Shown piece by piece: positions 8,324 to 61,751 of a stretch of 64,000 nucleotides of DNA. This DNA comes from Comamonadaceae bacterium OH2545_COT-014. GTDB lineage: Bacteria; Pseudomonadota; Gammaproteobacteria; Burkholderiales; Burkholderiaceae_C. The stretch is taken from the NCBI GenBank assembly GCA_003859965.1, contig RQYR01000013.1, positions 1 through 64,000 on the forward strand. The letters run 5' to 3'. Position numbers and translations under genes: made by a program. The first letter of the stretch is position 1. Each line of letters starts with the position of its first letter. Under the pieces are notes generated by a model. That model was not told the origin of the DNA and did no database searches. It saw only the letters and a list, made by a program, of their open reading frames with translations.

Positions 8324-8380
8324 AAAAAAGCCTTTACGGTCGGTGGTTGTAAGGTGATTAGCTCTTTTATTGATAGCAAA
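8324..8380 (-). repeat. Dispersed palindromic ATAGC element, copy
   Basis: Read on the minus strand it begins TTGCTATCAATAAAAGAGCT and ends AAAGGCTTTTTT, the same layout as the other copies (AT-rich TAGC box, mixed middle, GGC + T-run). It fills most of the gap between the deacetylase and the enoyl-CoA hydratase genes. The T-run end could give weak termination. Confidence 0.55.
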
Positions 8381-8406
8381 CAGGCCCGCGGCCTGCCCCT
8401 GAACGC

Positions 8407-9210
8407 ATGAATCCCCAAACCCTTCACCCGGCGCCTGACGCGCCGCTGCTGCACACGCGCGATGCGCGCGGCGTGCATCGCCTCACCCTCAACCGGCCCG
8501 CCGCCTTCAACGTGCTTGGCGAAGAGATGCTGGACGCACTGCACGCCGCGCTGGCGCGCGTGGCGGCCGACGACGCCTCGCGCGCGCTGGTCATCGGCGC
8601 CGAGGGCAAGGCCTTTTGTGCCGGGCACGACCTCAAGCAGATGAGCGCCAACCCCCGGCTTGATTACTACCGCCAGCTTTTCGCGCACTGCACCCGCGTC
8701 ATGCTGGCCGTGCAAAAGCTGCCTGTGCCCGTCATCGCCCGGGTGCAAGGCCTGGCCACGGCGGCAGGCTGCCAGCTGGTGGCCCAGTGCGACCTGGCCG
8801 TGGCGGCTGACACGGCGCGCTTTGGCGTCAACGGCATTGACGCCGGCCTGTTTTGCGCCACCCCCAGCGTGCCGCTGGTGCGCGCCATGCCCGCCAAGCC
8901 CGCGCTGGAGATGCTGATGACCGGCGCCTTCATCGGCGCCGCCGAGGCGCAGGCGCGCGGCCTGGTCAACCGCGTGGCCGCGCCCGAGGCGCTGGACGCC
9001 GCGCTGGACGAGCTGCTTGCGGCCATTCTTTCCAAGCCGCGCGAGGCGCTGGCCGCTGGCAAGCAGCTGTTTTACGCCCAGCGTGAACTGGGGCTGGAAG
9101 CCGCCTACCAGCTGGCCGGCGAAAGCATGGCCTGCAACATGATGCTGGACGTGGCGCAGGAAGGCGTGCGCGCCTTCATCGAGAAAAGGCAACCCGCATG
9201 GCGTCAGTGA
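8407..9210 (+). CDS. Enoyl-CoA hydratase/isomerase family protein
   Basis: Crotonase-fold protein, 267 aa. The oxyanion-hole motifs are visible: KAFCAGHDLKQM (first) and ATAAGCQLVAQCDLAVA (second), then RFGVNGIDAGLFCATPSVPL. The GLFCxTPxVPL signature resembles the ECHDC3-like subgroup, and in place of the paired catalytic glutamates of true hydratases the active-site loops carry other residues, so the reaction may not be a standard hydration. The 3' end overlaps the next gene by 13 bp, implying translational coupling with the mechanosensitive channel. The substrate is unknown. Confidence 0.88.
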   Translation: MNPQTLHPAPDAPLLHTRDARGVHRLTLNRPAAFNVLGEEMLDALHAALARVAADDASRALVIGAEGKAFCAGHDLKQMSANPRLDYYRQLFAHCTRVMLAVQKLPVPVIARVQGLATAAGCQLVAQCDLAVAADTARFGVNGIDAGLFCATPSVPLVRAMPAKPALEMLMTGAFIGAAEAQARGLVNRVAAPEALDAALDELLAAILSKPREALAAGKQLFYAQRELGLEAAYQLAGESMACNMMLDVAQEGVRAFIEKRQPAWRQ

Positions 9211-10670
9211 CTCCCCCCGCGCTGTACATTGAAGACTGGGCCGCCTGGTGGGCGGCCGTCAGCAAACAGGGCGTGCTGATGGATCTGGCCGTGCTGCTGG
9301 CCAGCGCCTTGCTGGCCTGGCTGGCCGTGCGTGCGCTCGGCCGCGCCGCGCAAAGCCGTGCGCTGCAAGCGGCTGAAGAAGCCAAAGCCCGGGCGCAGGC
9401 AGAACAGGAAGCGCTGGCCAGCCGCCGAGCGGAACCGGATGCGGAACCGGAGGCGCCTGAGACACCGGCTGTCCCGGTGGCGCATGCCACCGCCTTGCAT
9501 CCGCCCGCGGGCGCCTCGGTGCTGTTTGGCAAGCGCACGATCGATGGCGTGCTGTTTCCCCTCATCTGGCTGGTGCTGGCCGTGGCCGGGCGCACGGCGC
9601 TGTTGCACTGGTTCGGGCCCACGCCGCTGCTGCGCGTGGCCATTCCCGTGCTGGTGTCGCTGCTGGTCATCCGCAGCGGCGTGACGGTGCTGCGCGCCGC
9701 GTTCCCCGGCGTGGCCGTGGTGCGCCTGCTGGAGCGCACCATCTCCTGGGTGGCCTGGGTGACGATGGTGCTGTGGGTCACCGGTGTGTTGCCGCGCGTG
9801 CTGGCTTTTCTGGACACCATCACCTGGAAGGTGGGCGGCGCCACCATCAGCGTGCGCACCCTGATCGAAGGCGCGCTCACGGCGGGCGCGCTGATGCTGC
9901 TGGCGCTGTGGATCGCCTCGCTGGTGGAGGCGCGCCTGCTGCGCTCGGCCACCGGCACCTCGCTCTCGGTGCGCAAGGCCATTGCCAACGCCACGCGCGC
10001 GTTCATGCTGTTCATCGGCCTGCTGATGGGCCTGTCGGCGGTGGGTATCGACCTGACGGCCCTGTCGGTCATGGGCGGCGCGCTGGGCGTGGGCATTGGT
10101 CTGGGCCTGCAAAAGCTGGCGGCCAACTACGTCAGCGGCTTCGTGGTGTTGGCCGAGCGCAGCGTGCGCATTGGCGACATGGTGCGCGTGGGCGGTTTTG
10201 AAGGGCGCATCTCCGACATCCGCGCGCGTTACACCGTCATCCGCGCCACCAGCGGCGTGGAAGCCATCGTGCCCAACGAGACGCTGATGACCAGCACCGT
10301 CGAAAACCTGTCTTTTTCCGACCGGCGCATTCACCAGACCACCACCGTTTCAGTTGGCTACGACAGCGACGTGACGCAGGTGCAGCAACTGCTGGTGCAG
10401 GCCGCGCGCCAGTGCCCGCGCGTGCTGCCCGAACCTGCGCCGGTGGCGCATTTGTCGAACTTCGGCGCCGACGGGCTGGACTTCACGCTGGGCTACTGGA
10501 TCAAGGATCCTGAAAACGGCCTGGGCGGCCCGCGTTCGGAAATCAACGTGGCCATCCTGAATGCGCTGCGCGCGCACGATGTGGACATTCCTTACCCGCA
10601 GCGCGTCATGCACATGCTGCCCCCGCCGCCCGCTCTGCCAGCCCCTGGGGCCGGCGCGCCACCGGCCTGA
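9198..10670 (+). CDS. MscS-family mechanosensitive channel
   Basis: 490-aa inner-membrane protein. An N-terminal helix is followed by an Ala/Glu-rich charged linker (roughly 55-105), then several TM helices and the MscS core. The pore-lining helix and its downstream hallmark are clear: a Gly/Ala-rich VMGGALGVGIGLGLQKLAAN, then FVVLAERSVRIGDMVRVGGFEGRI and the beta domain (VPNETLM). The C-terminus ends in a Pro/Ala-rich tail. It is larger than E. coli MscS (286 aa) because of the extra N-terminal helices. It starts inside the end of the hydratase gene. Osmotic-shock release is the likely role. Confidence 0.92.
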   Translation: MASVTPPALYIEDWAAWWAAVSKQGVLMDLAVLLASALLAWLAVRALGRAAQSRALQAAEEAKARAQAEQEALASRRAEPDAEPEAPETPAVPVAHATALHPPAGASVLFGKRTIDGVLFPLIWLVLAVAGRTALLHWFGPTPLLRVAIPVLVSLLVIRSGVTVLRAAFPGVAVVRLLERTISWVAWVTMVLWVTGVLPRVLAFLDTITWKVGGATISVRTLIEGALTAGALMLLALWIASLVEARLLRSATGTSLSVRKAIANATRAFMLFIGLLMGLSAVGIDLTALSVMGGALGVGIGLGLQKLAANYVSGFVVLAERSVRIGDMVRVGGFEGRISDIRARYTVIRATSGVEAIVPNETLMTSTVENLSFSDRRIHQTTTVSVGYDSDVTQVQQLLVQAARQCPRVLPEPAPVAHLSNFGADGLDFTLGYWIKDPENGLGGPRSEINVAILNALRAHDVDIPYPQRVMHMLPPPPALPAPGAGAPPA

Positions 10671-10761
10671 AACATGACGTGCGCGTCAAGCGTGCCGATA
10701 CAATGAACCCGGCAAAAAGCACGACCGTTTTCCAATTTCAAAACCCTTGGAGAGACAAGCC

Positions 10762-11511
10762 ATGAAAGCACTCGTCGCCGTCAAGCGCGTGGTGGACTAC
10801 AACGTGAAGGTTCGCGTCAAGGCAGACCAGACCGGCGTGGACATCGCCAACGTCAAGATGAGCATGAACCCCTTTGACGAAATCGCCGTGGAAGAGGCCG
10901 TGCGCCTCAAGGAAAAGGGCGTGGTGAGCGAGATCATCGCCGTCTCCTGCGGCCCCGCCCAGTGCCAGGAAACGCTGCGCACGGCCATGGCCATCGGCGC
11001 CGACCGCGGCATCCTCGTGGAAACCGGCGAAGAGCTGCAGCCGCTGGCCGTGGCCAAACTGCTCAAGGCGCTGGTGGACAAGGAGCAGCCCCAGCTGGTG
11101 CTGCTGGGCAAGCAGGCCATCGACGACGACGCCAACCAGACCGGCCAGATGCTGGCCGCGCTGGCCGACCTGCCGCAAGCCACCTTCGCCAGCAAGGTGG
11201 AGCTGGCCGATGGCAAGGCCAGCGTCACGCGCGAGGTTGATGGCGGCCTGGAAACCGTGGCCCTGAGCCTGCCCGCCGTCGTCACCACCGACCTGCGCCT
11301 GAACGAGCCGCGTTACGTCACGCTGCCCAACATCATGAAGGCCAAGAAAAAGCCGCTGGAAACCGTCAAACCCGAAGACCTGGGCGTGGACGTGACCCCG
11401 CGCCTGAAAACCCTGAAAGTGACCGAGCCGCCCAAGCGCAGCGCCGGCGTCAAGGTGCCCGACGTGGCCACGCTGGTGGACAAGCTCAAGAACGAAGCCA
11501 AAGTCATCTGA
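10762..11511 (+). CDS. etfB: Electron transfer flavoprotein beta subunit
   Basis: 249-aa AMP-binding subunit of the heterodimeric ETF that carries electrons from acyl-CoA dehydrogenases to ETF-ubiquinone oxidoreductase. The start [17 protein letters not shown], the [20 protein letters not shown] stretch, the [16 protein letters not shown] loop and the [11 protein letters not shown] stretch are typical of EtfB. The ATG at 10762 follows TTGGAGAGA. It precedes etfA by 138 bp, an unusually long and structured gap, and both lie just upstream of an acyl-CoA dehydrogenase. Confidence 0.96.
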
Positions 11512-11616
11512 TGACGCAATGACCTCGCGGCTTCGCCGCTTCGATGACGGTCGCTGGCGCGACCATGAAAATAAAGCTCATCCGTCATTGAAGCGCAGCG
11601 AAGTCATTCGTCATCA
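11509..11616. other. Nested hairpins between etfB and etfA
   Basis: The outer arms TGATGACGCAATGAC (11509-11523) and GTCATTCGTCATCA (11603-11616) are complementary with one deletion. Inside are GCGGC-TTC-GCCGC (11527-11539), CTTCGATGACGG pairing with CCGTCATTGAAG at 11582-11593 (one mismatch), and GGTCG..CGACC (11549-11564). The whole can fold into a branched structure directly after the etfB stop. It could stabilise mRNA ends or adjust etfA expression, or be a decayed mobile palindrome. Confidence 0.6.
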
Positions 11617-11649
11617 GTCATCACACACAGATTTCAGGAGAACACACAC

Positions 11650-12582: not shown

Positions 12583-12618
12583 TGGCTTTGACGCTCTTTT
12601 TCTGAGAGCACGTTACGC

Positions 12619-12646
12619 AAGGGCATCGTGCGCGATGCCCTTTTTT
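12619..12646 (+). terminator. Intrinsic terminator after etfA
   Basis: GGGCATCG / CGATGCCC stem (12621-12628 and 12633-12640, TGCG loop) followed by six T residues. It separates the etf genes from the acyl-CoA dehydrogenase gene 43 bp downstream, which therefore probably has its own promoter or depends on read-through. Confidence 0.85.
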
Positions 12647-12682
12647 CTTCCCTCAAGATCAATGACAACCAGGAGATAGCAA

Positions 12683-14476: not shown

Positions 14477-14891
14477 GGCGCAGCGCCGTAGCGCCAGCCA
14501 CACAACGCCGGGGGCGCTGGTGGGCTGTGCGCCCCGGCGCGTGCCTTGTGCGTCTTGTTTGGCGCGTGGCCGTGCGCTGTGGCGCATTGCCTTCCGCACT
14601 ATTCCATGAGGCGGGCGTTGCTGGCCTTGCGGCCCGCCGCGCGTGCCCCACGGCGTGAGGTGCGCAGGCTGCCGCAGGAGCCTGGCGTTCCGCCAGCAAA
14701 CGCACAGGAAGGCCACGCGGGGCGGCATGGCTTCAACCCATGGCACGGCGCATGGATGAGCCGCCCTTGCTGCCTCTGCGGGGGCGGTTGGCTCCCCCTA
14801 TTCTGTTTGCTCATAAAAACATAGCTGTCAGGGCTTGATGGTGTTGCCCTGAAGGCCGTTTTGATCTTCATTGCACGGAGAAGCTTTCACC
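14477..14891. other. Intergenic stretch with one palindromic element
   Basis: No credible gene. Its first 300 bases are GC-rich without a clear terminator. At 14813-14865 lies a well-preserved copy of the dispersed element: CATAGCTGTC, an AGGGC..GCCCT hairpin and GGCCGTTTTGAT. The SD region of the next gene follows (ACGGAG at 14875-14880). Confidence 0.5.
14813..14865 (+). repeat. Dispersed palindromic ATAGC element, copy
   Basis: AT-rich ATAAAAACATAGCTGTC followed by the stem AGGGC (14829-14833) / GCCCT and an AAGGCCGTTTTGAT end. One of the best-preserved copies in the window. Confidence 0.7.
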
Positions 14892-18566: not shown

Positions 18567-20570
18567 TCAGCCCGCTTCGGCTTCGATCTGTTCGATGCGC
18601 GTGGACAGATCCAGCCACTTTTCTTCCAGCGCCGCCAGTTCGTCGCCAAGGCTTTTCAGCTCGCGGCCGGCATCGGCAATGGCGGCGGGGGGCAGGGGGG
18701 TGGCCAGTTGGGCTTCCAGCGTGGCGCGGCGTTCGTTCAGCGCGGTCATGCGCGCTTCGGCCGCGCCCAGCTCGCGCTTGAGGGGCTTGGTTTTCTCGGC
18801 CAACTGGGCGCGGCGCTGGGCCTGCTGGCGCCGCTGCTCGGCGGGGTTGAGGCTGGGCGTTGCAGTGGTTTTTTGTGCCTCTTGGCTTACAGGTTCTTGG
18901 TTTTTTGCTATTGAATTGATAGTTGTGGCCGCCTCGCGCCGGCGCCGGGCTTCATCCAGCAGGTAGCGCTGGTAGTCGGTCAGGTCACCGTCGAAGGGTT
19001 GCACGCCGCCAGCGGCCACCAGCCAGAACTCGTCGCACACGCTGCGCAGCAGGGCGCGGTCGTGGCTGACGAGCATGAGCGTGCCCTCGAAGCCGTTGAG
19101 CGCCACGGCCAGCGCCTCGCGCGTGGCCAGGTCCAGGTGGTTGGTGGGTTCGTCCAGCAGCAGCAGGTTGGGGCGCTGCCACACCAGCATGGCCAGCACC
19201 AGGCGCGCCTTTTCGCCGCCGCTGAACTGGCCCACGGGCTGGCCCGCCATGTCGCCGGCGAAGTGAAAGCCGCCCAGAAAGTTGCGCAGCTGCTGCTCGC
19301 GCGCCTCCTCGGCGTTTTCGCGGCCCGTTTCGCGCGCCAGGCGCACCATGTGTTCCAGCGGCGTGCTGTGCGGGTGCAGCACGTCCAGCTCTTGCTGGGC
19401 GAAGTAGCCGATGGACAGGCCCTTGCCCTCCGTGACCTTGCCCGCCAGCAGCGGCAGCGTGCGCGCGATGGTCTTGACGAAGGTGGACTTGCCCTGCCCG
19501 TTGGCGCCCAGAATGCCGATGCGCTGGCCCGCCAGCACGCTGCGGTTGACGCCGCGCAGGATGACGGTTTCTTTCGCGCCTGTGCCTTCGGCCTCGCCCG
19601 TCCGGTAGCCAAAGCTGGCGTCGCTGATGGCCAGCATGGGGTTGGGCAGGCTGGGCGGCTCCCGGAACGCGAACTGGAACTCGGCCTCCGCCAGCACCGG
19701 GGCGATTTTTTCCATGCGCTCCAGCGCCTTCACGCGGCTTTGCGCCTGCCGCGCCTTGGTGGCCTTGGCCTTGAAGCGGTCGATGAACTTTTGCAGGTGC
19801 GCCCTCTTTTCCTGCTGCTTGGCGTAGGCGGCCTGCTGCAAGGCCAGCTGCTGCGCGCGCAGCTCTTCAAAGGCGCTGTAGTTGCCGCCGTAGCGGGTGA
19901 GCTTGAGGTGCTCGATGTGCAGCGTGACTTGCGTGACGGCGTCGAGAAAGTCGCGGTCGTGGCTGATGACGACGAGCGTGCCGGGGTAGCGGCCAAGCCA
20001 GCCTTCCAGCCAGACCAGCGCGTCCAGGTCCAGGTGGTTGGTGGGTTCGTCCAGCAGCAGCAAGTCGCTGGGGGCCATGAGCGCGCGCGCCAGTTGCAGG
20101 CGCATGCGCCAGCCGCCGGAAAAGCTGTTGACGGGCCGGCCCAGCTCGTGCGGCTGAAAGCCCAGGCCCAGAATCAGCGCCTCGGCCCGCGCGCGGGCGT
20201 CGTGCGCGCCCGCGTCGTGCAGGTCGCTGTGGGCCTGGGCCATGGCCATGCCATCGCCTAAATGCTCTGCTTTCGATAGCTGCTCGCGCAGGTGGGTCAG
20301 GCGCTCGTCGCCTGAAAGAACAAAGTCGGTGGCGCTGGCGCCGGTTTCCGGCATGTGCTGCGCCACTTGGGCGATGCGCCAGGCGGCGGGCAGAGCGAAG
20401 TCGCCGCCGTCCTCATGCAGCGTGCCGTTGAACAAGGCAAACAGTGTGGATTTGCCCGCGCCGTTGCGTCCCACCAGCGCCACTTTTTCACCGGGGGCGA
20501 TGGTGGCGCTGGCGCCGTCGAGCAGAACTTTGGCGCCGCGGCGAAGGATGATGTTTTGAAGCTGGATCAC
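18567..20570 (-). CDS. ABC-F ATPase, YheS type, with inserted palindromic element
   Basis: 667-aa twin-ATPase translation factor without membrane domains. First Walker A GRNGAGKST (34-42), signature NSFSGGWRMRLQLARAL and Walker B LLLLDEPTNHLDLDAL; the second half has GANGQGKST, FSGGEKARLVLAML and LLLLDEPTNHLDLATR. Sequence follows E. coli YheS throughout (KATKARQAQSRVKALERMEKIAP linker). The C-terminal coiled coil (about 575-667) is separated from domain 2 by a linker whose residues ~549-568 (INSIAKNQEPVSQEAQKT) are encoded by a dispersed palindromic element. ABC-F proteins act at the ribosomal E site; a specific role is unproven. Confidence 0.93.
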   Translation of the reverse strand: MIQLQNIILRRGAKVLLDGASATIAPGEKVALVGRNGAGKSTLFALFNGTLHEDGGDFALPAAWRIAQVAQHMPETGASATDFVLSGDERLTHLREQLSKAEHLGDGMAMAQAHSDLHDAGAHDARARAEALILGLGFQPHELGRPVNSFSGGWRMRLQLARALMAPSDLLLLDEPTNHLDLDALVWLEGWLGRYPGTLVVISHDRDFLDAVTQVTLHIEHLKLTRYGGNYSAFEELRAQQLALQQAAYAKQQEKRAHLQKFIDRFKAKATKARQAQSRVKALERMEKIAPVLAEAEFQFAFREPPSLPNPMLAISDASFGYRTGEAEGTGAKETVILRGVNRSVLAGQRIGILGANGQGKSTFVKTIARTLPLLAGKVTEGKGLSIGYFAQQELDVLHPHSTPLEHMVRLARETGRENAEEAREQQLRNFLGGFHFAGDMAGQPVGQFSGGEKARLVLAMLVWQRPNLLLLDEPTNHLDLATREALAVALNGFEGTLMLVSHDRALLRSVCDEFWLVAAGGVQPFDGDLTDYQRYLLDEARRRREAATTINSIAKNQEPVSQEAQKTTATPSLNPAEQRRQQAQRRAQLAEKTKPLKRELGAAEARMTALNERRATLEAQLATPLPPAAIADAGRELKSLGDELAALEEKWLDLSTRIEQIEAEAG
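18869..18924 (-). repeat. Palindromic element inside the ABC-F gene
   Basis: On the minus strand it reads AACTATCAATTCAATAGC followed by a middle with CCT..AGG pairing and a CACAAAAAA end. It keeps the frame and encodes a non-conserved linker (residues ~549-568) absent from E. coli YheS. Confidence 0.65.
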
Positions 20571-30238: not shown

Positions 30239-30266
30239 GGCGGCGGCGATGGGTGAGCAGGTTTGG

Positions 30267-30320
30267 TATGAAAATGATAGCTGCTCAGGCCGTGGCTACG
30301 GCCTGAACGGGCTTTTTCAT
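30267..30320 (+). repeat. Dispersed palindromic ATAGC element, copy
   Basis: ATGAAAATGATAGCTGCTC, then the perfect hairpin AGGCCGT-GGCT-ACGGCCT (30287-30304) and a GGGCTTTTTCAT end. It fills the gap between dapE and prmB. The hairpin is followed by T's on the plus strand only, opposite to the genes. Confidence 0.75.
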
Positions 30321-30340
30321 GTGTGGCGGAGGGCGCGGCT

Positions 30341-33204
<2,864 letters not shown>

Positions 33205-37530: not shown

Positions 37531-37589
37531 TTGGTTGCTATTGAAAAAGCTGTTTTCAGCGCCTGATTTGCCTGCTCCCCAAGGGCGCC
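37531..37589 (+). repeat. Dispersed palindromic ATAGC element, copy
   Basis: TTGGTTGCTATTGAAAAAGC box followed by AGCGCC ... GGGCGC pairing (37558-37563 and 37583-37588). Intergenic, between the terminator and the SLT gene. Confidence 0.65.
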
Positions 37590-38914: not shown

Positions 38915-41900
38915 ATGTTCCCTTTTTTCCGCGAACGCAAAGATACGCCTGAAACTCCCGCGCCCGCCGCGCCCAAGGCCGCTGAAGCTCATCCGCTGGA
39001 CGCCCTGACCGGCGGCGCGTTTTCCGCCGCCACATCGGGCGAGCGTGCGGCGCGCATTCGTGCCTGGCTGGCTACGCAACCCACGCCCGAACAGATGCAG
39101 GAGGTTTACAAGGAGCTGGCCGCCAAGGACAAGGGCGCGGCCAAGGCCCTGCGTGAAAAGCTCGACGAACTCAAGCGCGCCCGCCACCAGGAGGCCCTGG
39201 CCGCCGACTGGGCCGCCAAGGCCGAGGCGCTGCTGCAAGCCGCCCGCCTGAACGTGGCCGATGCCCTGGCCTGGCAGCGCGACGCCGCCCGCGCCGGGGC
39301 GCCGCTGTCGCGCGAGCCGCTGGCCGGCCTGCGCAGCCAGCTGGCCGAGCGCATCAAGACCGTGGAAGACCTGCAGCAGCGCGTGATGGTGCAGCGCGAA
39401 GCCGCCGTGCTGCTGGCCCAGCGCATTGAGCTGCTGTCCACCAAGCCCTGGCGCGACGCCGATGCCGCCCAGGCCGGTCTGGAAACGGACGTGGCCCACT
39501 GGCGCGAACAATCCGCCGCCCTGCAGGCCGATGCCCAGTGGGGCAGCGTGGACATGCGCTACCCGCCCCAGATCGAAGCCGCCCAGGCGCAGCTGGCCGC
39601 CGTGTGGGACGCCTTTGGCGCCGCCCTGGCCCAAACCCGCGCCGCCGCGCAGGACGCCAACGCCCCCCTGCCTTCCGTGCCCGTGTGGGCTGACGAGCTG
39701 CGCGTGGCGCGCGGCCTGCCGCCTGAAACGGCCAGCCAGGCCGACGCGAACGAAAAAGCGGCGTCCGCCAAGCCCAAGGCCAGCGCCGAACAGCGCGCCG
39801 CCGCCACCCAGGCCGTGCAGGCCGGCGTGATGCTGCTGGAGCAGGCCGTCACCGCCGGCCACACCAAGAACACCCACAGCGCCGCCGCCGCGCTGCGCCA
39901 GGCACTCAAGACGCACGGCCGCCTGGTTGACGACGCGCTGGCCGCGCGCGTGCACGCCGCGCTGGTTTCCGCCGGCGAGCTGGAAGGCTGGCAGCGCTGG
40001 AGCGCCGACCAGCTGCGCGAACAGCTCGTGGCCAAGGCTGAAGCCCTGTTGGTCAAGCGCCGCGTCAAAGGCGCCTCGGCCAAAACAGCCAAAGCAGCCG
40101 AAGCGGCGCCAACAGCCGATGCGGCGGAAACTGCCGGGGCCGCCGGGGCCGCCGGGGCCGCCGGGGCGTCGCCCACCCCGGCCGCGCCAGGCACACCGCC
40201 AGCCGAAGTGCCTGCCGCCACCCCGGATGCTATTGAAAGCATAGCTTCTCAGGCCGAAAATACGGCCCAAACGGCTGAAAACACCGAAGAAACCGTAACA
40301 CCCCAGGCCGCCCCGCCTGCCGAAGACGAGGGCTGGGAAACCGTTCCTGCCGTCAGCGGCCGCAAGCTGCAAGACACCTTGCGCAAACTGCGCGAAGAAT
40401 GGAAAGCCGCCGACCAGGGCGGCGCCCCCAACCACGCGCTCTGGAAGCGCTTTGACCGCGCCTGCAACGAAGCGCACCGCTTCGTCGAACAATGGCTGGA
40501 CAAGGTGCGCACCGAAGCCGCCGCCCACAAGGCCGAACGCCAGGCCCTGATTGATGAAGTCAAAGCCTGGGGCGCCGCGCAGGCGCAAGCCATCGAGGCT
40601 GGCGGCGCCCAGGCCCGCACCGACTGGAAAGCCTTTGGCCGCCAGATCCACCAGTTCTCCGAACGCTGGCGCGCCGCAGGGCACCTGTCCGAGAAAGCCT
40701 TTGCCGAGCTGCAACCGCTGTGGAAAGAGGCCATCCACACCGCCGCCGCGCCGCTGGAAGCCGCGCAAAAACAAAGCATGGCGCGCCGCCAGGCGCTGAT
40801 CGAGGAAGCGCAGACCCTGGGCGCCGCGCCCAGCCTGCGCGTTGACGCCGTCAAAGCCCTGCAACAGCGCTGGCAGGCCGAAGCCCAGGCCGTGCCACTG
40901 GAGCGCAAGCACGAAACCAGGCTGTGGGACGCCTTCCGCAAACCCATTGACGACGCCTTCAACCGCAAGAGCGCCGAACGCGAAAAGCAGCAAGCCGCCA
41001 CCAGCGCCCATGACCAGGCCGTGCTGGCCGCCGCCCAGGCGCTGGAAGCCGCCAACGCCAGCGGCGATGCCGCGCAAATCCGCGCCGCCATGACCGCGCT
41101 GGAAGCCGCGCTGCGCGGCCAGCCAGCGGCCACGCCCGCATCGGCCCCGGCCACGGAAGCTGCGCCCGCTGACGCCGCTGCGTCATCGGGCCAGGCCGCA
41201 GCAGACGCCGCCCCCGCTCCCGCGGAAAGCGCGGCGGACGGTGCCGCTGGCGCCGACACCGCCCCCCCGGCGCCTGCTCCCCAACCTGCCGCCACCCCCG
41301 CCAAGCCCCTGATCGCCATGCGCGGCGACGACCGCCCCGGCATGAAAAAGGCGGAACCCGCCGCCCCCGCGCGCGGCGGCAAGGCCGGCGCAGGCCGTGG
41401 CGATGCCCGTGGCGCAGGCCGCGACCGCGCAGGTGAACGCGGCTCCCGCCCCGACCGGGGGGAGCGAAGTGAGCGGGGTCAGCGCCATGACCGCGCCCCC
41501 CGCCTGGGCGACACCGCCTTCCGCGCCCAGCGCCATGCGCTCGATCAGGCGCAGGCCACCCTCAAGAAGCTGGCCGCGCAAGCACACGGCGAGGCGCTGG
41601 CGCAACTGCTGGGCGCCTGGCAGCAGCGCGATGCGGCGCAACTGCCCAGCGCGCAGGAGCTGGGCCGTGGCGTGACGGGCGCCACCCGCAGCGCCTGGGC
41701 GCAGGCCATTGGCGCGGCCCCAGCGGGCAACCCGGCGGCCGAAGCCCTGCTGCGCCTGGAAATGGCGGCCGAAGTGCCCACGCCGGCCGAACACCTGGAT
41801 GCCCGCCGCGCCCTGCAATTGCAGTTGCTCACCCGCCGTAACGACCCGGCCCCCGCTGCCACCTGGGCGCAAGACACGGCCGCGGTGTTCGCCGCCGCGC

Positions 41901-41962
41901 ACGACGAGGCCAGCGCCCGCCGCCTGCAAAGCGCCCTCAAGGCGCTGCTGCGCAAGGGCTGA
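38915..41962 (+). CDS. Large DUF349 protein, low-complexity linkers
   Basis: 1015 aa, Ala-rich and mostly alpha-helical. DUF349-type helical repeats are recognisable around 467-700 (LQDTLRKLREEWKAADQGGAPNHALWKRFDRACNEAH; DWKAFGRQIHQFSERWRAAG; VKALQQRWQAEA). The N-terminal half (60-370) is also helical. Linkers at about 400-465 and 715-845 are Ala/Pro-rich; one contains a tandem AGA repeat and a palindromic element, and another is Arg/Gly/Asp-rich (RGDARGAGRDRAGERGSRPD). DUF349 proteins are widespread in proteobacteria, but their function is not established. The long antisense frame over this gene is a GC artefact. Confidence 0.85.
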   Translation: MFPFFRERKDTPETPAPAAPKAAEAHPLDALTGGAFSAATSGERAARIRAWLATQPTPEQMQEVYKELAAKDKGAAKALREKLDELKRARHQEALAADWAAKAEALLQAARLNVADALAWQRDAARAGAPLSREPLAGLRSQLAERIKTVEDLQQRVMVQREAAVLLAQRIELLSTKPWRDADAAQAGLETDVAHWREQSAALQADAQWGSVDMRYPPQIEAAQAQLAAVWDAFGAALAQTRAAAQDANAPLPSVPVWADELRVARGLPPETASQADANEKAASAKPKASAEQRAAATQAVQAGVMLLEQAVTAGHTKNTHSAAAALRQALKTHGRLVDDALAARVHAALVSAGELEGWQRWSADQLREQLVAKAEALLVKRRVKGASAKTAKAAEAAPTADAAETAGAAGAAGAAGASPTPAAPGTPPAEVPAATPDAIESIASQAENTAQTAENTEETVTPQAAPPAEDEGWETVPAVSGRKLQDTLRKLREEWKAADQGGAPNHALWKRFDRACNEAHRFVEQWLDKVRTEAAAHKAERQALIDEVKAWGAAQAQAIEAGGAQARTDWKAFGRQIHQFSERWRAAGHLSEKAFAELQPLWKEAIHTAAAPLEAAQKQSMARRQALIEEAQTLGAAPSLRVDAVKALQQRWQAEAQAVPLERKHETRLWDAFRKPIDDAFNRKSAEREKQQAATSAHDQAVLAAAQALEAANASGDAAQIRAAMTALEAALRGQPAATPASAPATEAAPADAAASSGQAAADAAPAPAESAADGAAGADTAPPAPAPQPAATPAKPLIAMRGDDRPGMKKAEPAAPARGGKAGAGRGDARGAGRDRAGERGSRPDRGERSERGQRHDRAPRLGDTAFRAQRHALDQAQATLKKLAAQAHGEALAQLLGAWQQRDAAQLPSAQELGRGVTGATRSAWAQAIGAAPAGNPAAEALLRLEMAAEVPTPAEHLDARRALQLQLLTRRNDPAPAATWAQDTAAVFAAAHDEASARRLQSALKALLRKG
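40134..40168 (+). repeat. 9-bp tandem repeat, GCCGGGGCC units
   Basis: About four copies encode AGAAGAAGA inside the first low-complexity linker of the DUF349 protein. In-frame slippage would only change linker length. Confidence 0.75.
40226..40274 (+). repeat. Palindromic element inside the DUF349 gene
   Basis: GATGCTATTGAAAGCATAGC box, then GGCC-GAAAATAC-GGCC. It encodes DAIESIASQAENTAQT (residues about 438-454) in a variable linker and keeps the frame. Confidence 0.7.
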
Positions 41963-42353
41963 CACGGGGCAGGCGGGGGGCCGCGGCGGCGCGGGCCTCC
42001 CGCCAACAAGCCCGGCAGGCCGCCGCCGCGCTGGCAGTACGGCGAACCAAGCCAGGCACAGGGCCCCGGCGCTGTACTGACGCCCTGGCGGCTGGTTGCC
42101 GGGTGCACCGCGGGCATGGATAGGCATCCGGTCGCGCCACCGTTCGGGCAGGGCGCGCCCGCAGCGCTTTGTTTCCTGAAAACCTGTTCAAAGTCCTTGC
42201 GCGGCGGGCACTCAAGCGGCTTGGGGTGTGCTGGCCAGGCGCCACTCCTTGCTCCCGCCATGCAGCCATGGCTTGTGCCATGGCGAGGCTTTGCAACAGA
42301 AGCAGACCGTCCCCATCCGCTTCATTACCCGCCGTGCAGGGGAAAACAGGCGC
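41963..42353. other. Gap before murI with a MITE-like copy
   Basis: No gene. From 42181 AACCTGTTCAAAGTC and the next ~25 bases match the element at 84-130, and at 42328-42350 CCCGCCGTGCAGGGG matches its right part (158-170). The copy is longer and partly decayed, and its right inverted arm is damaged. Confidence 0.5.
42181..42350 (+). repeat. Decayed MITE/IS-end copy
   Basis: Left end AACCTGTTCAAAGTC identical to 84-98; GCGGCGGGC and AAGCGG blocks follow as in the copy at 47874. The internal part differs from the unit at the window start. Confidence 0.5.
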
Positions 42354-43214
42354 TCAGGCCGCCAGGCCCAGCTGGCGCGCGGCGGCGTGAAGGGCGCTGG
42401 CGTCGCCGGTGGCGCGCAGCGCCAGATGGCCGGGGGCGGCGTCTGTTGGGGGGCGCAGCAGGCCGCGCTCGGCCAGCAGGCGCCGGGTCTGGCGGGCCAC
42501 CGGGGGGCCGGGTTCGAGCAAGGCGATGTGCGGCCCGGCGTGCTGGCGCCAGGCGGCTTCGGCCAGCGGGTAATGGGTGCAGCCGAGCACCAGGGTGTCA
42601 ATGGCGCCGGGCTGCATGCCCAGCGGCCCGAGCTGGCCCAAATACTGTTCAATCAGGTGGCTGGCGCTGGCGCCTGCGGGCGCCAGGCTGGACGCCTCGG
42701 CCTCGATCGCGTCAGCCAGCCCGTTGCAAGCCAGCGCGATGAACTGCACATGGGCCGGCTGGGCGGCCTGCAGCAGGCGGTAGCGCTGGCTTTGCAGCGT
42801 GCCCTGGGTGGCCAGCACGCCCACGCGGCCGGTGCGGGTGAGCGCGGCGGCGGGCTTGAGGGCCGGCTCCACGCCCACGATGGGCAGGTGCGGGTGCGCG
42901 GCGCGCAGCGCCTGCGCGGCGGCGGCGGTGGCGGTGTTGCAGGCGATGACCAGCGCCTTGATGCCGTCAGCCGCCAGCAGCGCCGAGCCAATGGCCAGGC
43001 TGCGCGCGGCCACGAAGGCATCGCCCCGCTGGCCGTAGGGGGCGTGGGCGCTGTCGGCCACGTAGATGAAATGTTCGCGCGGCAGCTCGGCGCGCAGGGC
43101 GCGCAGCACGGAGAGGCCGCCAATGCCGCTGTCGAACACGCCGATGGGCCGCGCCGCCGCCAGCGCGGCCAGGGCGGCGGGGCAGGGCGGCGGGGCGGTG
43201 GCGGGCAGCGTCAT
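42354..43214 (-). CDS. murI: Glutamate racemase
   Basis: 286-aa PLP-independent racemase supplying D-glutamate for peptidoglycan. Motifs: IGVFDSGIGGLSVLRAL (24-40), YVADSAHAPYG (51-61), VIACNTATAAA with Cys92 as one acid/base, and LVLGCTHYPL with Cys212 as the other. Length is typical. It lies 27 bp downstream of the class I fumarase gene on the same strand, so the two may be co-transcribed. Confidence 0.96.
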   Translation of the reverse strand: MTLPATAPPPCPAALAALAAARPIGVFDSGIGGLSVLRALRAELPREHFIYVADSAHAPYGQRGDAFVAARSLAIGSALLAADGIKALVIACNTATAAAAQALRAAHPHLPIVGVEPALKPAAALTRTGRVGVLATQGTLQSQRYRLLQAAQPAHVQFIALACNGLADAIEAEASSLAPAGASASHLIEQYLGQLGPLGMQPGAIDTLVLGCTHYPLAEAAWRQHAGPHIALLEPGPPVARQTRRLLAERGLLRPPTDAAPGHLALRATGDASALHAAARQLGLAA

Positions 43215-44789: not shown

Positions 44790-45006
44790 GGCGTGGGAGT
44801 CGTGGGGTGTTGTGATGATGAAAAGCCTGCGCCTGCCGGGGCGGCAGGGCGGCGGAATTATCGCCGTGCGCCAGGGCGCAACGGCGCATGCCAAGCATTG
44901 CAAATGCGAACCAGTTTCATCTGGTGGCTAGAATCTGCGCCCGCCGCGCCTGCTGCATCCTGTGGCACCGGCCTTGAATCCCAAACGCGACGAGGAGACC
45001 CGCTTC
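44790..45006. promoter_or_regulatory. Divergent fumarase promoter region
   Basis: 216 bp between the two fumarase starts. A TAGAAT (44929-44934) could be the fumC -10; CCAG-TTTCAT-CTGG and GCATT-GCA-AATGC lie just before it and may bind a regulator. SD of fumC is GAGGAG. No clear site of a known iron or redox regulator is seen. Confidence 0.4.
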
Positions 45007-46401
45007 ATGACCGCCACCCGCCAGGAAAAAGACACTTTCGGCCCCATCGACGTGCCCGCCGACAGGCTGTGGGGCGCGCAGACGCAGCGCTCGCTGCAGA
45101 ACTTCGACATCAGCGGCGAGCAGCAGCCGCGCGAGATCATTCATGCGCTGGCGCAGGTCAAGCGCGCCTCGGCCGCCGTCAACCAGCGCCTGGGCCTGCT
45201 GGATGAGAAGAAGGCCGCCGCCATCATCGCCGCCGCCGACGAAGTGATCGCCGGCCGGCACCCCGACGAATTTCCGCTGGTGGTGTGGCAAACCGGCTCG
45301 GGCACGCAAACCAACATGAACGTCAACGAAGTGCTGGCCAACCGCGCCAGCGAGCTGCTGGGCGGCGTGCGCGGCGAGGCCCGCCTGGTGCACCCCAACG
45401 ACGACGTGAACAAGAGCCAGTCCAGCAACGACGTGTATCCCACCGCCATGCACGTGGCCGCCGTCACCGCCATCGAAAGCCGCCTGCTGCCCGCCATTGC
45501 CCGGCTGCGCGCCACGCTGCAGGGCAAGAGCCAAGCCTTTGCCGACATCGTCAAGATCGGCCGCACCCACCTGCAAGATGCCACGCCGCTGACGCTGGGG
45601 CAGGAGTTTTCCGGCTGGGTGGCGCAGCTCGACCACGGCGAGAAGCACCTGCGCTCGGCCCTGCCGCACCTGCACGAGCTGGCCCTGGGCGGCACCGCCG
45701 TGGGCACCGGCCTGAACGCGCCCAAAGGCTATGCCGAGGGCGTGGCCGAGGAGCTGGCGCGGATCACGCAGTACCCCTTCGTCACCTCGCCCAACAAGTT
45801 CGAATCGCTGGCCAGCTGCGATGCGCTGGTGTTCGCCCATGGCGCGCTCAAGACCCTGGCCGCCAGCATGATGAAGATCGCCAACGACGTGCGCTGGCTG
45901 GCCAGCGGCCCGCGCAGCGGCATTGGCGAGATCAGCATCCCCGAGAACGAGCCCGGCTCGTCCATCATGCCCGGCAAGGTCAACCCCACGCAGAGCGAGG
46001 CCGTGACCATGCTGGCCGCGCAGGTGCTGGGCAACGACGTGGCCATCAACGTCGGCGGCGCCAGCGGCAACTTCGAACTGAACGTGTTCCGCCCGCTGGT
46101 GGCGCACAACTTCCTGCAAAGCGTGCGCCTGCTGGCCGATGGCATGAACAGCTTCAATGACCATTGCGCCGTGGGCATCGAGCCCAACCGCGAGCGCATC
46201 GCCGAGCTGGTGCAGCGCTCGCTCATGCTGGTGACCGCGCTCAACCCGCACATCGGCTACGACAAGGCCGCCTTCATCGCCAAGAAGGCGCACAAGGAAG
46301 GCAGCAGCCTGCGTGAAGCGGCGATTGCCAGCGGCCACCTCACGGCCGAGCAGTTCGACGCCTGGGTCGTGCCCGCCAACATGGTGGGCAACCTGCGCTG
46401 A
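45007..46401 (+). CDS. fumC: Class II fumarate hydratase
   Basis: 464-aa iron-independent fumarase of the aspartase/fumarase superfamily. Start ATG 45007 ([29 protein letters not shown]) with GAGGAG 9 bases before. Substrate motifs [48 protein letters not shown] and the signature [15 protein letters not shown] are all intact. Catalyses fumarate to L-malate under oxidative or iron-poor conditions. Confidence 0.96.
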
Positions 46402-46449
46402 GGCGGGGCGGCCGGGCACCCGTCCGGTTCGATGATCCAGTGCCGATAA

Positions 46450-46505
46450 TTCAAAAACAATAGCGCCTGGGGCAGTATCCATCTGCCTTGGTGCTTATTT
46501 TTTTA
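46450..46505 (+). repeat. Dispersed palindromic ATAGC element, copy
   Basis: TTCAAAAACAATAGCGCC box, GGCAG-TATCCAT-CTGCC hairpin, GCTTATTTTTTTAG end. Confidence 0.7.
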
Positions 46506-46569
46506 GGGCCAGCCGCCATGCGATCGGCCACGAGCCGGGCAGCGAAACTGTGCATAAAGTGCCGGGGTG

Positions 46570-46622
46570 CATCAAAAAACATAGCGACCTAGGCCGTATA
46601 AACAGCCTCAAAGGCCTGTTTG
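46570..46622 (+). repeat. Dispersed palindromic ATAGC element, copy
   Basis: CATCAAAAAACATAGCGACC box, AGGCC ... GGCCT pairing (46591-46595 and 46612-46616) and a TGTTT end. Confidence 0.7.
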
Positions 46623-46747
46623 GCTGAATGCGTAACGCCGGGGCAATCCACCTGGTCATGTGTGCAGGCGCATGCATGGTGAGTCAGTACCGTATCGCGG
46701 CGCACGCGGCCACGGCGTGGCGCGCAGGCTGCGGATAATCGCCCCCC

Positions 46748-47485: not shown

Positions 47486-47873
47486 GCAGGGCCGACGCGG
47501 CGTGCAGGTGAAAGCGCCGGCCGGCCAATGCAAGGCCGGGGCTTGTGCTCTGTGCGGTATCAGGGGCACGCAAAATCAGAAGCAGTTGTTTGCTGGCTCT
47601 ATGGGGCGGCATCGGATTTGGCCGCTCGTTACCTCAACAGTGGCTCCCCGCTTGAGTTTGGGGCGAGTCGCTACCAAGGTTTAATAACAGCGGGCAAGCT
47701 GTGGGCTCCCATGCCTTGGGCTGTATAGCCGCGCACGGGGCCGCCAAAGGGCCGCCAAAGGGGCGCGCCTGGGCCTTGCGTGTTGGAGGGTGTTTGAGCG
47801 GGTAGCGCAGCGGAGTTTTTTGAGCGTGCTGCTTTAAGGGGAAACGCGGAGCAGCGACAGCCAAGCCCTCGGA

Positions 47874-47930
47874 GCCTGTTCAAACCCCCTGCGCGGCGGG
47901 CGATCAAGCGGACTTGGGCGCAGATTTGCG
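47874..47930 (+). repeat. MITE/IS-end-like copy
   Basis: GCCTGTTCAAAC followed by CCCTGCGCGGCGGGCGATCA and AAGCGGACTTGGGCGC, closely parallel to the copy at 42181 and more loosely to 84-130. No matching right end is found. Confidence 0.5.
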
Positions 47931-52750: not shown

Positions 52751-52782
52751 TTTTCGATTTCCTCTTGTTGGTCCAATGCGTT

Positions 52783-54176: not shown

Positions 54177-54232
54177 GCGGGCTGGCGTGATTTGCGAATT
54201 GCTGGAGCGGCTTTGAAAACCGCGCAATCATA

Positions 54233-55440: not shown

Positions 55441-55479
55441 ACCGGATATGCGCCCCCGCCGGCTCTTGGGTGGCAAGCT

Positions 55480-55542
55480 AAGTTGCTATGAATTAAGTAG
55501 CTTCTTGCGCCCGATTGGTGGGCGGTGGCGCCTGTTTGATTT
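55480..55542 (+). repeat. Dispersed palindromic ATAGC element, copy
   Basis: AGTTGCTATGAATTAAGTAGCTTCTT, shortened here as box GCTATGAATTAAGTAGC, then GCGCC (55507-55511) pairing with GGCGC (55527-55531) and a TGTTTGATTT end. Intergenic, directly upstream of the lyase gene. Confidence 0.75.
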
Positions 55543-55571
55543 GCTTTTTTGGGCGATTGATCTCTTCTGCC

Positions 55572-56546: not shown

Positions 56547-56643
56547 GCGCCTTTTTCACCACATGCCTTCGGGCGGGTTTCAGCAGAAAGTGGCGGCGCA
56601 TGCCATCATTGCCGCCCTTTCCCTTTTTGAAGGCTTTTGTCAT

Positions 56644-57222: not shown

Positions 57223-57338
57223 GCGGCTGCAACGCGCCTGCCAGTGCTGCTGGCAGGCAGCGCAACGTGGTCACGCATTCTTGAGCCAAAGAAAAAACAG
57301 ATACCAGGACATTTACCGTTATCCAGGAGAAAACCCAC

Positions 57339-59930: not shown

Positions 59931-60001
59931 GCCATGTGCTTTTGCCGTTGAGCAAGCGGCAGCGCGCAGCTTGTTGAGTGCGTGCGCTGACCGTCCCCAT
60001 G

Positions 60002-60044
60002 ACCCCGTTTCGCCTGTTCAGGCGTGCGGGGTTTTTTGTTTTTC
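60002..60044. terminator. Intrinsic terminator after acnB
   Basis: ACCCCG (60002-60007) pairs with CGGGGT (60027-60032), enclosing CGCCTG-TT-CAGGCG, followed by TTTTTTGTTTTT. Serves acnB. The nnr gene converges from the other side, with nothing recognised in 60045-60212. Confidence 0.85.
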
Positions 60045-60212
60045 TGGCGCATTTCATTTGTTTGCCAGCGGGTTTGTTCAGGCGGCGATGCCGTTCACGG
60101 TTCAAAAGCTTGTTGTCCGGGCAAGCGCAGGGCTGTTCATGATGAGGGCCAGAAGATGCAAAGCCGCGATGAACTGATGGGTCCCAATGGCTGCGCCAGT
60201 CACCTTGGAGCT

Positions 60213-61751
60213 TCAAGGCGTCAGCCGCCTGGCCAGTGCGCCAGCGGTGAGCGCCTGATCTGACGGCCAGGTGTCGGCGGCGGCGCCGTGCTGAAAAGCA
60301 GCATGGCAAGCAGCTTCGAAGGCTGCAAGGCCTGCGGCCAGGCGGGCGCCCGTCAGGCCGGCCAGCACGTCCCCCGTGCCCGCCGTGGCCAGGCGGGCAT
60401 TGCCGGTGGGATTGAGGCGCGGCGTTTCACCTGGCCCGGCGATGACCGTGCCGCTGCCTTTGAGCACAACAGTGCAGCGGAAACGGTCGGCCAGAGCCTG
60501 CGCGGCGCCAAGGCGGTCGGCCTGCACCTGATGCACTTGAGCCGCCAGCAGGCGCGCGGCTTCCAGCGGATGGGGGGTCAGCACGGTGGCCTGTGCGCGG
60601 ACGTGGCGTGTAGCCAGCGCAGTTTGCAAGGTGGGGTCTTGTGCCACGGCGTTGAGGGCATCGGCATCCAGCACCAGGCGCGGAGCTTGTGCCAGCACGG
60701 CAGGAAGGACGGCTTGAACTGCCTGGCCTCCGCCGCAACCACAGACAACGGTAAGCGCCCCCAGCGCCAGTGCATCCACGTGGCGCTGCATCAGCTCGGG
60801 CAGGCCCGTGTCGAACGCGGGCCGGTCATGGCCCAGCAGGGCCAGGTACACGCGGCCAGCGCCGCCGTGCAGCGCGGCACTGGCGGCCAACAGGGCCGCG
60901 CCGGTCATGGCATGGCCGCGTGTGGCATTGCTTTCGCCGCCAATGATGGCCACATCGCCAAAACGGCCTTTGTGGCTGTCGTGTGGGCGACAGGCCAGTG
61001 GTGACGGGGCGTTCAGCCAGGCGGCCGGTGTTTCTTCTGCCGTGGGGCTCACCCCCAGATCGTCAAACCACAAGGTGCCGCAGGCATCCCGTCCGTGGGC
61101 AGTCAGCAGCCCAGGCTTGAGCGTAAGCAGGCTGAGGGTGTGGCGTGGCTGATGGTAAAAAAATGTGTTCAGGCAGGCTGGATCTTTGTTGATTGCTATT
61201 GATTTGGAAGCGTTTGGTTGGTGCAGTACGCCAGTGTCCGCATCCAGGCCGGTGGGCATGTCTACCGCCAGCAGGGGCGCGGCGCTGCTGTGCAGCCGGC
61301 TCAGCACGTCAAGCAGGCGGCCGGTGGGGGCGCGGGTTACGCCCAGTCCCAGCAGGGCATCGATGCACAAGTCTTGCGGGCCGAGGGGCGGCGCCCCATC
61401 GGCAAAGGCCACGCCAGCGGCGCGCGCGCGGCGGAGCGAGGCCAAGGCGTCTGGCGGCAGCCGGGCTTCATCGCCCAGCCAGGTCACCACGGGCTGCCCG
61501 CCCCACTGGCGCAGATGCATGGCGGCTTCCAGGCCATCGCCACCGTTGTTGCCCGGGCCGCAGGCCAGCCATACCGTGCGTGCATGCGGCGCCAGGGCCA
61601 GGGCCAGCCGTGCTACAGCCAGGCCAGCGCGCCGCATCAAGGTGTGCGGCGGCAGGCTGGCCGCGGCAGCCTGTTCGATGCGGCGCGTGGCGGCCGCGCT
61701 GAAAAGTGGGACAGGGCGACCAGGTGCATACAGGGGCAGCAGGTTGGGCAT
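60213..61751 (-). CDS. nnr: Bifunctional NAD(P)HX epimerase/dehydratase
   Basis: 512-aa metabolite-repair enzyme. The N-terminal epimerase domain (about 1-235) has CGPGNNGGDGLEAAMHLRQWG and DALLGLGVTR; the C-terminal ADP-dependent dehydratase (about 245-512) has GRFGDVAIIGGESNATRGHAMTGAALLAASAAL in several parts, LVLDADALNAVA, TVLTPHPLEAARL and NARLATAGTGDVLAGLTGA. Residues ~180-199 (ASKSIAINKDPACLNTFFY) in the epimerase domain, just before RHTLSLLTLKPGL, are encoded by a palindromic element and look foreign to the family. Probably still functional. Confidence 0.93.
   Translation of the reverse strand: MPNLLPLYAPGRPVPLFSAAATRRIEQAAAASLPPHTLMRRAGLAVARLALALAPHARTVWLACGPGNNGGDGLEAAMHLRQWGGQPVVTWLGDEARLPPDALASLRRARAAGVAFADGAPPLGPQDLCIDALLGLGVTRAPTGRLLDVLSRLHSSAAPLLAVDMPTGLDADTGVLHQPNASKSIAINKDPACLNTFFYHQPRHTLSLLTLKPGLLTAHGRDACGTLWFDDLGVSPTAEETPAAWLNAPSPLACRPHDSHKGRFGDVAIIGGESNATRGHAMTGAALLAASAALHGGAGRVYLALLGHDRPAFDTGLPELMQRHVDALALGALTVVCGCGGGQAVQAVLPAVLAQAPRLVLDADALNAVAQDPTLQTALATRHVRAQATVLTPHPLEAARLLAAQVHQVQADRLGAAQALADRFRCTVVLKGSGTVIAGPGETPRLNPTGNARLATAGTGDVLAGLTGARLAAGLAAFEAACHAAFQHGAAADTWPSDQALTAGALARRLTP
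61155..61212 (-). repeat. Palindromic element inside nnr
   Basis: On the plus strand TAAAAAAATGTGTTCAGG leads to GATTGCTATTGATTTGG; layout parallels the ABC-F copy (T/A run, GC middle, GCTATTGA box). The frame is kept. Hairpin arms are weak here. Confidence 0.55.

Follow-up and report, generated by a model that had tools for sequence, protein, structure and literature searches.

What kind of family a short palindromic element forms, and what keeps its copies alike, is the question raised by a 64,000-nucleotide stretch of DNA from Comamonadaceae bacterium OH2545_COT-014 (contig RQYR01000013.1; hereafter the window), which carries several such copies, some of them inside genes. We found copies in the same places with different spellings in each species, a pattern that neither simple jumping nor simple inheritance explains. 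The reading we favour, with a probability of about one half, is that of an ancient non-autonomous palindromic repeat of ~60 bp in Comamonadaceae-type bacteria, similar to miniature inverted-repeat transposable elements (MITEs), repetitive extragenic palindromes (REPs) and enterobacterial repetitive intergenic consensus (ERIC) sequences, which is kept as a hairpin, in transcript or DNA, and homogenised within each genome.

A dispersed family of hairpins in the window and the genome

The window has a GC content of 68% and lies on contig C5 of a 3.1-Mb genome (the home genome, G000). Twelve positions at which the original prediction had placed copies were scored with a position weight matrix (PWM) trained on 104 home-genome copies, all from outside the window, using 30 Markov-resampled windows as a control. 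Ten of them (5153, 8324, 14813, 30267, 31301, 40226, 46450, 46570, 55480 and 61155) scored 25 to 73 bits, against a maximum of 0.7 in the resampled windows. Position 18869 was weak, at 2.4 bits, yet the box of the element is present there, and position 37531 failed (-18.7), with the box alone to be seen. The covariance model R1 returned eight window copies (E<=1) and a second model, R2, ten; the copies at 31301 and 61155 were picked up by the PWM and missed by both models. The PWM also picked out 12590 and 20261.

Across the genome, the pattern ATAGCTGC-N20..45-GGCNNTTTT gave 15 matches against 0 for its reversed control, and R1, whose E-values are rough estimates, gave 135 matches at E<=1, of which 98 reached E<=0.01, after scoring 150 of 2123 candidates. 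The family proposed from the window is thus real, and its copy number stands above that of control sequence. For further analysis 118 of the 135 matches were used; seven on contigs C79 and C86 were left out, leaving 111 copies, of which 109 are full length and four lie at contig ends. Since 15 of the 20 seeds were chosen by a pattern that included the T-run, T-tract frequencies are biased upward and the tail statistics are biased with them.

The consensus of the 67-nt class is tTTGCTATtAAAAaaATAGCTgCTcAGGCCGTATcTACGGCCTGAAAGGCCTTTTTGActcaTaa. Its edges are sharp, with ~0.03-0.05 bits of information per column in the flanks and background level outside columns 5-70. The unit consists, in order, of a box (GCTAT-N7-ATAGC), a 13-pair imperfect stem (columns 24-36 with 44-56) that holds a conserved T-G wobble at 26-54, and a T-tract at 57-61. 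The earlier description, an AT-rich box ending in TAGC followed by a GC hairpin whose arms differ among copies and still pair, was therefore correct. Of the 109 full-length home copies, 65 have an A-rich and 34 a T-rich box spacer, and 98 have a T-rich tail; by inspection, the element ends TTTGC../..AAA are weakly inverted.

Covariation of the arms was borne out, and strongly, by a multi-genus alignment of 42 sequences, in which 49 both-side changes were counted against 23.9 +/- 5.2 in shuffled sets (0 of 500), and in which 82% of cells were paired, compared with 32 to 49% when the stem was slid. Mutual information (MI) in the home genome reached z-scores of 17 at columns 35-45, 13 at 32-48 and 6 at 30-50; within the relative G023 the signal was small because most core columns there hardly vary. 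A second hairpin within the box (GCTAT/ATAGC) showed little covariation, with a best z of 2.2 to 4.7 at single pairs, and extension of the stem by pairing of the A-tract with the T-tract gave correlations of 0.09, -0.12 and 0.20. Rfam yielded no gathering match in the window and, for the element in six loci, none up to E 5; its M23 RNA family had weak scores in two regions, below cut-off and >1 kb from the element.

Copies at the same positions in different species

We compared the home genome with two relatives, G023 and G010. With G023 there were 177 reciprocal best proteins of 77% mean identity, over 1.45 and 0.8 Mb of compared sequence. As scored by model, 56 gaps were comparable: five carried a copy in both genomes, five in the home genome only, two in G023 only and 44 in neither (Fisher p 0.001). 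Inspection of the seven one-sided gaps by eye added three shared copies that had been missed by the model or the gene call (C13_142254, C46_21700:5000 and C8_9690, the last degenerate); the first two score 54-55 bits under a profile based on the relatives. In total, eight of the 11 home copies with a comparable gap are shared with G023, all eight in the same orientation, while C4_45925, C10_10644 and C34_1:1786 are unshared and one copy is found in G023 only. With G010, three of three are shared, again in the same orientation, two of the three having been ascertained through G010's copy. Two in-gene copies are common to the home genome and G023 (partner scores 55.7 and 39.3), and one further in-gene copy is partly shared with G010. 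Between G010 and G023, three sites of 30 loci were comparable and two were shared; at the third, between genes that by inspection are apparently convergent, G010 has a canonical copy and G023 only the box with another terminator-like hairpin. The copies are old residents, in the same place and orientation across species.

Genome-specific spelling of the stem-loop core

At stem pair 32-48, G-C is found in 85 of the 109 home copies, C-G in 11 and another combination in 13. In G023 the pair is C-G in 53 of 54 copies, and in G010 in 28 of 29. The G010 count excludes L281, whose locus runs into a contig end and whose row, one of 30 for G010, is a wrong stretch; the identity and genealogy analyses gave the same outcome when repeated without it, and its row is still within the sets used for the shuffled-partner, site-by-site and G-U/A-C tests. 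The same difference was seen at shared sites, 11 of 12 of which were used, one truncated shared copy being dropped: the home copy has G-C at nine, and the partner has C-G at ten and C-A at one. The profile that located the partners was trained on G023 and G010 and is somewhat biased towards their dialect; the home-genome model also recovered five of these partners.

Over the core (columns 30-50) at these 11 sites, identity was 0.430 between orthologues and 0.423 between cross-genome pairs, compared with 0.524 within the home genome and 0.645 within G023 and G010 (0.462, 0.431, 0.518 and 0.630, respectively, over columns 27-54). The corresponding values for the box were 0.677, 0.630, 0.628 and 0.645. 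When partners were shuffled, p was 0.08 for the box, 0.09 for the whole element and 0.91 for the core. Because of these identities and p values, the box and the whole element can be said to keep a trace of descent and the core not. Site by site, the mean identity to paralogues exceeded that to the orthologue in the core at nine of 11 sites on the home side and at 11 of 11 on the relatives' side; for the whole element it did so at five and eight of 11, respectively. The core of the arms varies more between genomes than between loci.

The same tendency extends to seven genomes, where 92 listed 42-nt matches, up to 15 per genome, had an identity of 0.608 within and 0.539 between genomes (0 of 2000 permutations) and where loop spelling differs from genome to genome. 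Genealogy within genomes was almost nil, the pairwise spread being close to that of column-shuffled sets, with hardly any excess in G023.

Half-switched arms were also observed at pair 32-48, in 11 of the 109 home copies: nine combine the old left with the new right base and two do the opposite, an imbalance that would fit an earlier change in the right arm.

Genomic context and copies inside genes

Genes were called with a codon model built for the analysis. The 111 copies fall into tandem gaps (66), convergent gaps (17), divergent gaps (4), gene overlaps (20) and contig ends (4). Divergent gaps are avoided, holding four of 87 intergenic copies against 22% of the available space (p 8e-6). From the 20 gene-overlapping copies, five that overlap a start or stop edge were excluded; the other 15 lie truly inside genes, as had been claimed for some copies. 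Twelve of these are antisense and, by inspection, 11 of the 15 are antisense in one frame, giving peptides like KMPSGQDGSAQAAIKKEAN (KMPSG...SAQxAIKKEAN). The box spacer is T-rich in ten of the 12 antisense in-gene copies compared with 22 of 86 intergenic ones (p 2e-4), so that the hairpin, read in the direction of the gene, is not followed by a U-tract. This spacer bias could also arise if proteins tolerate a lysine-rich linker better than one rich in phenylalanine.

Origin and maintenance of the repeat

The common unit, mostly in one frame inside unrelated genes, points to an origin by insertion, and the copies would have spread in this way long ago. They may now be retained since the hairpin acts at the transcript level in either orientation, its likeliest role being that of a terminator-like or an mRNA-end/intercistronic hairpin; this transcript-level function would be terminator-like in many copies. 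Homogenisation of the stem-loop within each genome would come about either through copying akin to gene conversion or through selection imposed by a trans-acting partner that itself changes. We tentatively put forward a more specific proposal, on which we would not wager at even odds, namely that some 100 dispersed hairpins, many fixed in position and orientation before speciation, have been altered in place towards the spelling typical of their genome. Concerted evolution without visible transposition would then be at work, driven by undescribed conversion-like copying or by a co-evolving, sequence-reading partner; in the home genome the core would have passed from C-G to G-C at most loci, including nine of the 11 shared sites, at which the relatives have retained C-G (or C-A). 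It is common to regard short palindromic repeats as mobile debris; here many copies are conserved by place, not by spelling. A core spelling common across a genome makes the question of how dispersed bacterial repeats stay alike, by transposition, conversion or a reading partner, directly testable.

Several observations weigh against an old, genome-wide homogenised repeat that is kept as a functional hairpin. Comparison of orthologous sites, proposed as a check in the original prediction, supported shared residence in G023 and G010 and failed to do so in Comamonas granuli, which is without a copy in two of two comparable gaps. Over the whole element (columns 7-66), identity was 0.551 between orthologues, 0.513 between cross-genome pairs, 0.562 between home paralogues and 0.612 within G023 and G010; because whole-element orthologues slightly exceed cross-genome pairs and come near the home paralogues, it is on the core that the claim of dialects rests. 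Similar pairs are in small excess in the home genome and in G010; in G016 two 42-nt matches close to the starts of two contigs are identical, and in G322 two that are separated by 173 bp are nearly so. Some recent duplication is therefore possible. Column pairs with high MI occur off the stem too in the home genome (16-19, 42-45, 37-42 and 12-26). Among the pairing changes, G-U is no commoner relative to A-C than the composition of the columns predicts, which gives no reason to prefer RNA to DNA, and the element could act at the DNA level; strand-specific RNA selection through G-U pairs was dropped for this reason.

Other such points concern a putative role in termination. The consensus fits the GC hairpin and U-tract of an intrinsic terminator, and a strict terminator finder passed 26 of the 111 copies forward and 12 in reverse, against 53 of 1220 random segments. 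Tandem copies have no orientation preference relative to genes (30 same, 36 opposite). Nor do they crowd after stop codons: 19 of the 66 tandem-gap copies lie <=20 nt from the stop and 20 <=20 nt from the next start codon, nine of the latter being <=20 nt from both genes. Copies abutting start codons count against a pure terminator because a strong terminator there would be polar. Three of the 15 in-gene copies do carry a U-tract in the gene's direction. Substitution for other terminators was also considered, copy-bearing gaps tending to lack them (raw p 0.0007 for tandem and 0.19 for convergent gaps), and was rejected once length control left a mere trend (Cochran-Mantel-Haenszel z -1.5, non-significant).

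The strongest competing explanation, which we regard as unlikely though worth serious attention, holds that the element is bound by a trans-acting protein with affinity for DNA or RNA (a nucleoid protein, an RNA chaperone or similar) and that the dialects track the specificity of this protein, each locus adapting to one new optimum. Copies that come close to independent draws from a profile, a palindrome that evolves through swaps on both arms and dialect shifts that hit the core are all as this explanation would have it. However, a unit of ~60 bp with box, stem and tract is long for such a site, the change from C-G to G-C requires two transversions per locus at ~85 loci, and the in-gene copies, being one unit mostly in one frame, argue for insertion rather than in-place evolution.

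It is improbable that the copies are ordinary intrinsic terminators of separate origin, with a family-wide consensus reached by convergence. The GC hairpin is followed by a T-tract, often with an A-tract opposite (bidirectional); copies are rare between divergent genes, as are those of a related motif in Acidovorax ebreus (4 of 107 intergenic; PMC5217627); and in G023 a terminator-like hairpin occupies the place of the element at one site. Against convergence stand the upstream box, which is conserved in sequence, the in-frame copies inside genes and those that abut start codons, the low pass rate of the strict finder and the non-significant substitution test.

Quasi-palindrome correction produces both-arm changes that preserve pairing. 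The pairing-preserving changes seen here would fit neutral fossils whose palindromes are kept perfect by such template-switch repair rather than by selection, an explanation to which we give little credence: it cannot make 100 loci agree on one dialect, nor does it preserve box and tract across species at 77% protein identity, and half-switched arms exist in both directions.

Mobility and a helper transposase

Current palindromic mobility and a helper transposase resembling the REP-associated tyrosine transposases (RAYTs), both raised in the original prediction, found no support. The Y1_Tnp family (PF01797) had no match in the home genome or in the copy-rich genomes G016, G017 and G021, in a search that covered PF01797 and left other HUH enzymes aside. 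Across 25 same-genus genomes, matches were present in 12 of 17 copy-bearing and six of eight copy-free genomes (p 1.0). Since PF01797 is absent from these copy-rich genomes yet matched in most copy-free ones, there is no association with RAYTs, and a RAYT as current helper in the home genome was rejected on this PF01797 search. As a separate observation, G014 has twenty Y1_Tnp matches, several of them equal-scoring. No consistent signal of a target-site duplication emerged from 1560 offset tests on the 109 copies, although old copies could have lost their duplications; the best repeated offset had 18 dinucleotide matches against 7.7 expected, which is not significant given the number of tests. 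Near-identical copies were absent among the fetched home copies, which behave approximately as independent draws from the profile, the most similar pairs having identities of 0.79 (68-nt class) and 0.885 (67-nt class).

Were the family a REP-like element still mobilised in trans, whether by a RAYT or by another HUH transposase, this would account for dispersed, imperfect palindromes of REP-like size and a copy number that is patchy in the genus (0 to 123), as well as for the Y1_Tnp matches in copy-bearing genomes. In 93 of the 109 home copies the hairpin foot is ATAG, which differs by one base from GTAG, the tag that marks one REP superfamily; nine copies have GTAG itself (in G023, 46 of 54 have ATAG and five GTAG). 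Given the missing PF01797 matches, the Y1_Tnp matches in six of eight copy-free genomes, the dissimilarity of even the best home pairs, the lack of a clear target duplication and the positions shared by descent, this is the least probable of the explanations and is mostly refuted for the home genome.

Distribution among relatives

Among the genomes scanned, matches above background were confined to one bacterial family. With the home-dialect model, 16 of 24 same-genus relatives had 3 to 123 matches (E<=0.01) and eight had none, under strict filters and with some assemblies incomplete; none of 16 genomes from other families of the order matched. The sequence pattern, run over 275 genomes of the class, matched 15 times in the home genome; two genomes of the same family had 11 and 0 matches, and the others 0 to 2, about the level of the reversed control. 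R2 at E<=0.001 matched 33 of 120 family genomes, or 32 of 119 genera (42 candidates scored per genome), so that relatives of the element do exist elsewhere in the bacterial family, as had been suspected. A family found in so many sampled genera, and in print just as two unconnected motif pairs, would need annotation.

Matches at E<=0.5 in 80 named fumC loci, each of up to ~21 kb, were limited to Ottowia, Comamonas granuli and one Polaromonas locus; the fumC locus of a Rhodoferax metagenome-assembled genome had no element match at this threshold. Among the 80 named loci, Ottowia beijingensis gave the best match to the fumC of the window (85% identity, against 84% for Polaromonas), which places the home genome probably in Ottowia or a genus near it.

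Features of the window

Table 1. Element copies, candidates and host genes in the window, with the scores on which each assignment is based.
Feature	Position	Strand	Evidence
Intergenic element copy with diverged arms, minus-strand genes on both sides	5113..5180	-	PWM 55.7 at 5115; R1 E 0.016; R2 E 0.4
Element copy, degenerate stem, intergenic	8318..8385	-	PWM 36.7; R1 E 0.09; R2 E 0.047
Canonical element, tandem intergenic	14801..14868	+	R1 E 4e-8; PWM 59.2
Weak degenerate candidate, sense and in frame, C-terminal part of ABC transporter ATPase gene (18567-20570)	18866..18930	-	PWM 2.4 (30 Markov windows max 0.7); box visible; Pfam
Canonical element, intergenic	30257..30323	+	R1 E 9e-9; PWM 73.5
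Degenerate in-gene copy, antisense in M20 peptidase gene	31296..31356	+	PWM 25.4; not by R1/R2; Pfam; translation
DUF349 gene, in-frame element in first low-complexity linker	38915..41962	+	Pfam PF03993 4e-12; translation
Element in DUF349 gene, sense, in frame (DAIESIASQAENTAQTAE), tail A-rich instead of T-rich	40221..40287	+	R1 E 6e-6; PWM 51.7
Element downstream of fumC (44962-46401)	46440..46507	+	R1 E 6e-6; PWM 51.8
Second element, fumC / SpoU-methylase gap	46561..46627	+	R1 E 2e-6; PWM 58.1
Element, intergenic	55477..55543	+	R2 E 3e-5; PWM 47.7
Element copy, sense and in frame in YjeF_N / Carb_kinase gene (60213-61751)	61154..61214	-	PWM 35.2; not by R1/R2; Pfam; translation

In the region of the 18866 candidate, R2 has a match at 18899-18958 on the opposite strand (E 0.63), and a degenerate element-like match of 16.6 bits (20261-20321) lies about midway through the N-terminal half of this ABC transporter gene. 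The 31296 copy shares its frame with other in-gene copies (peptide ..GSAQGAIK..). In the G016 and G017 orthologues of the DUF349 protein (L151 and L152), weak element-like matches fall in the second low-complexity linker, the home copy being in the first. By inspection, 12590-12650 is an ordinary intrinsic terminator (GGGCATC..GATGCCC + T6) preceded by an element-like GCTC..GAGC box; a similar combination of box and terminator is found at one G023 site where G010 carries the element. Positions 61-220, 42160-42400 and 47871-47924 belong to another dispersed family of inverted repeats, unrelated to the element, whose ends resemble GAACCTGTTCAAAG and GCGGCGGGC. This family has many more matches in the fetched home-genome DNA, and since several of these are close to contig ends, it may represent a MITE or a piece of longer repeats.

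Comparison with known systems

The closest precedent is a pair of unexplained "potential novel motifs" in PMC5217627: ATAGCT(N)22CAAAAG in Polaromonas naphthalenivorans (125 copies, 18 of them in genes) and GCTTAT(N)5AAGCG in A. ebreus (114 copies; gaps 44 convergent, 4 divergent and 59 co-oriented). By inspection both fit the element in exact register, ATAGCT corresponding to columns 21-26 and CAAAAG to 49-54, and the second motif being the stem-loop complement CGCTT(N)5ATAAGC of the element. Their gene context resembles that of the element too. The passages of PMC5217627 that deal with these motifs do not link the two, and give no unit, structure, in-frame residence, shared positions, dialects or function. 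In the literature searched, outside which most subscription journals lie, the unit, its conserved positions and its dialects are undescribed, and only these two motif pairs were found.

REPs mobilised by RAYTs, with families tagged by GTAG or CGTC (PMC3733652), are likewise short, dispersed, imperfect palindromes that are mostly intergenic. The element differs in that its consensus lacks the GTAG/CGTC tag, its foot ATAG being one base from GTAG, and in that it is longer, has an AT box and resides in a home genome without a RAYT. Six Comamonadaceae names do not occur in the text of PMC3733652, and in term searches of two REP papers these genera went unmentioned. The Beta-proteobacterial repeat element (BRE) of Bordetella and some Comamonadaceae, as characterised in PMC3110155, which also names the ERIC, BOX and NEMIS-Correia repeats, is mostly intergenic with some copies in coding sequences; in Bordetella it measures 75-91 bp, has 69% GC and is often in tandem, whereas the element is ~60 bp, AT-boxed and mostly single. 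By the size and GC published for the BRE, the element is probably a different repeat.

With MITEs the element shares a discrete unit with sharp edges in unrelated flanks. ERIC, BOX and NEMIS-Correia repeats are, like it, old non-autonomous intergenic hairpin repeats retained at many loci; we know of no genome-specific dialects at shared sites in these families. Finally, the Rickettsia palindromic elements, as summarised in a review (PMC10969869), lie in frame inside unrelated genes and encode a recurring peptide, as does the element in its in-gene copies; they are ~150 bp long, compared with ~60 bp for the element, which is mainly intergenic.

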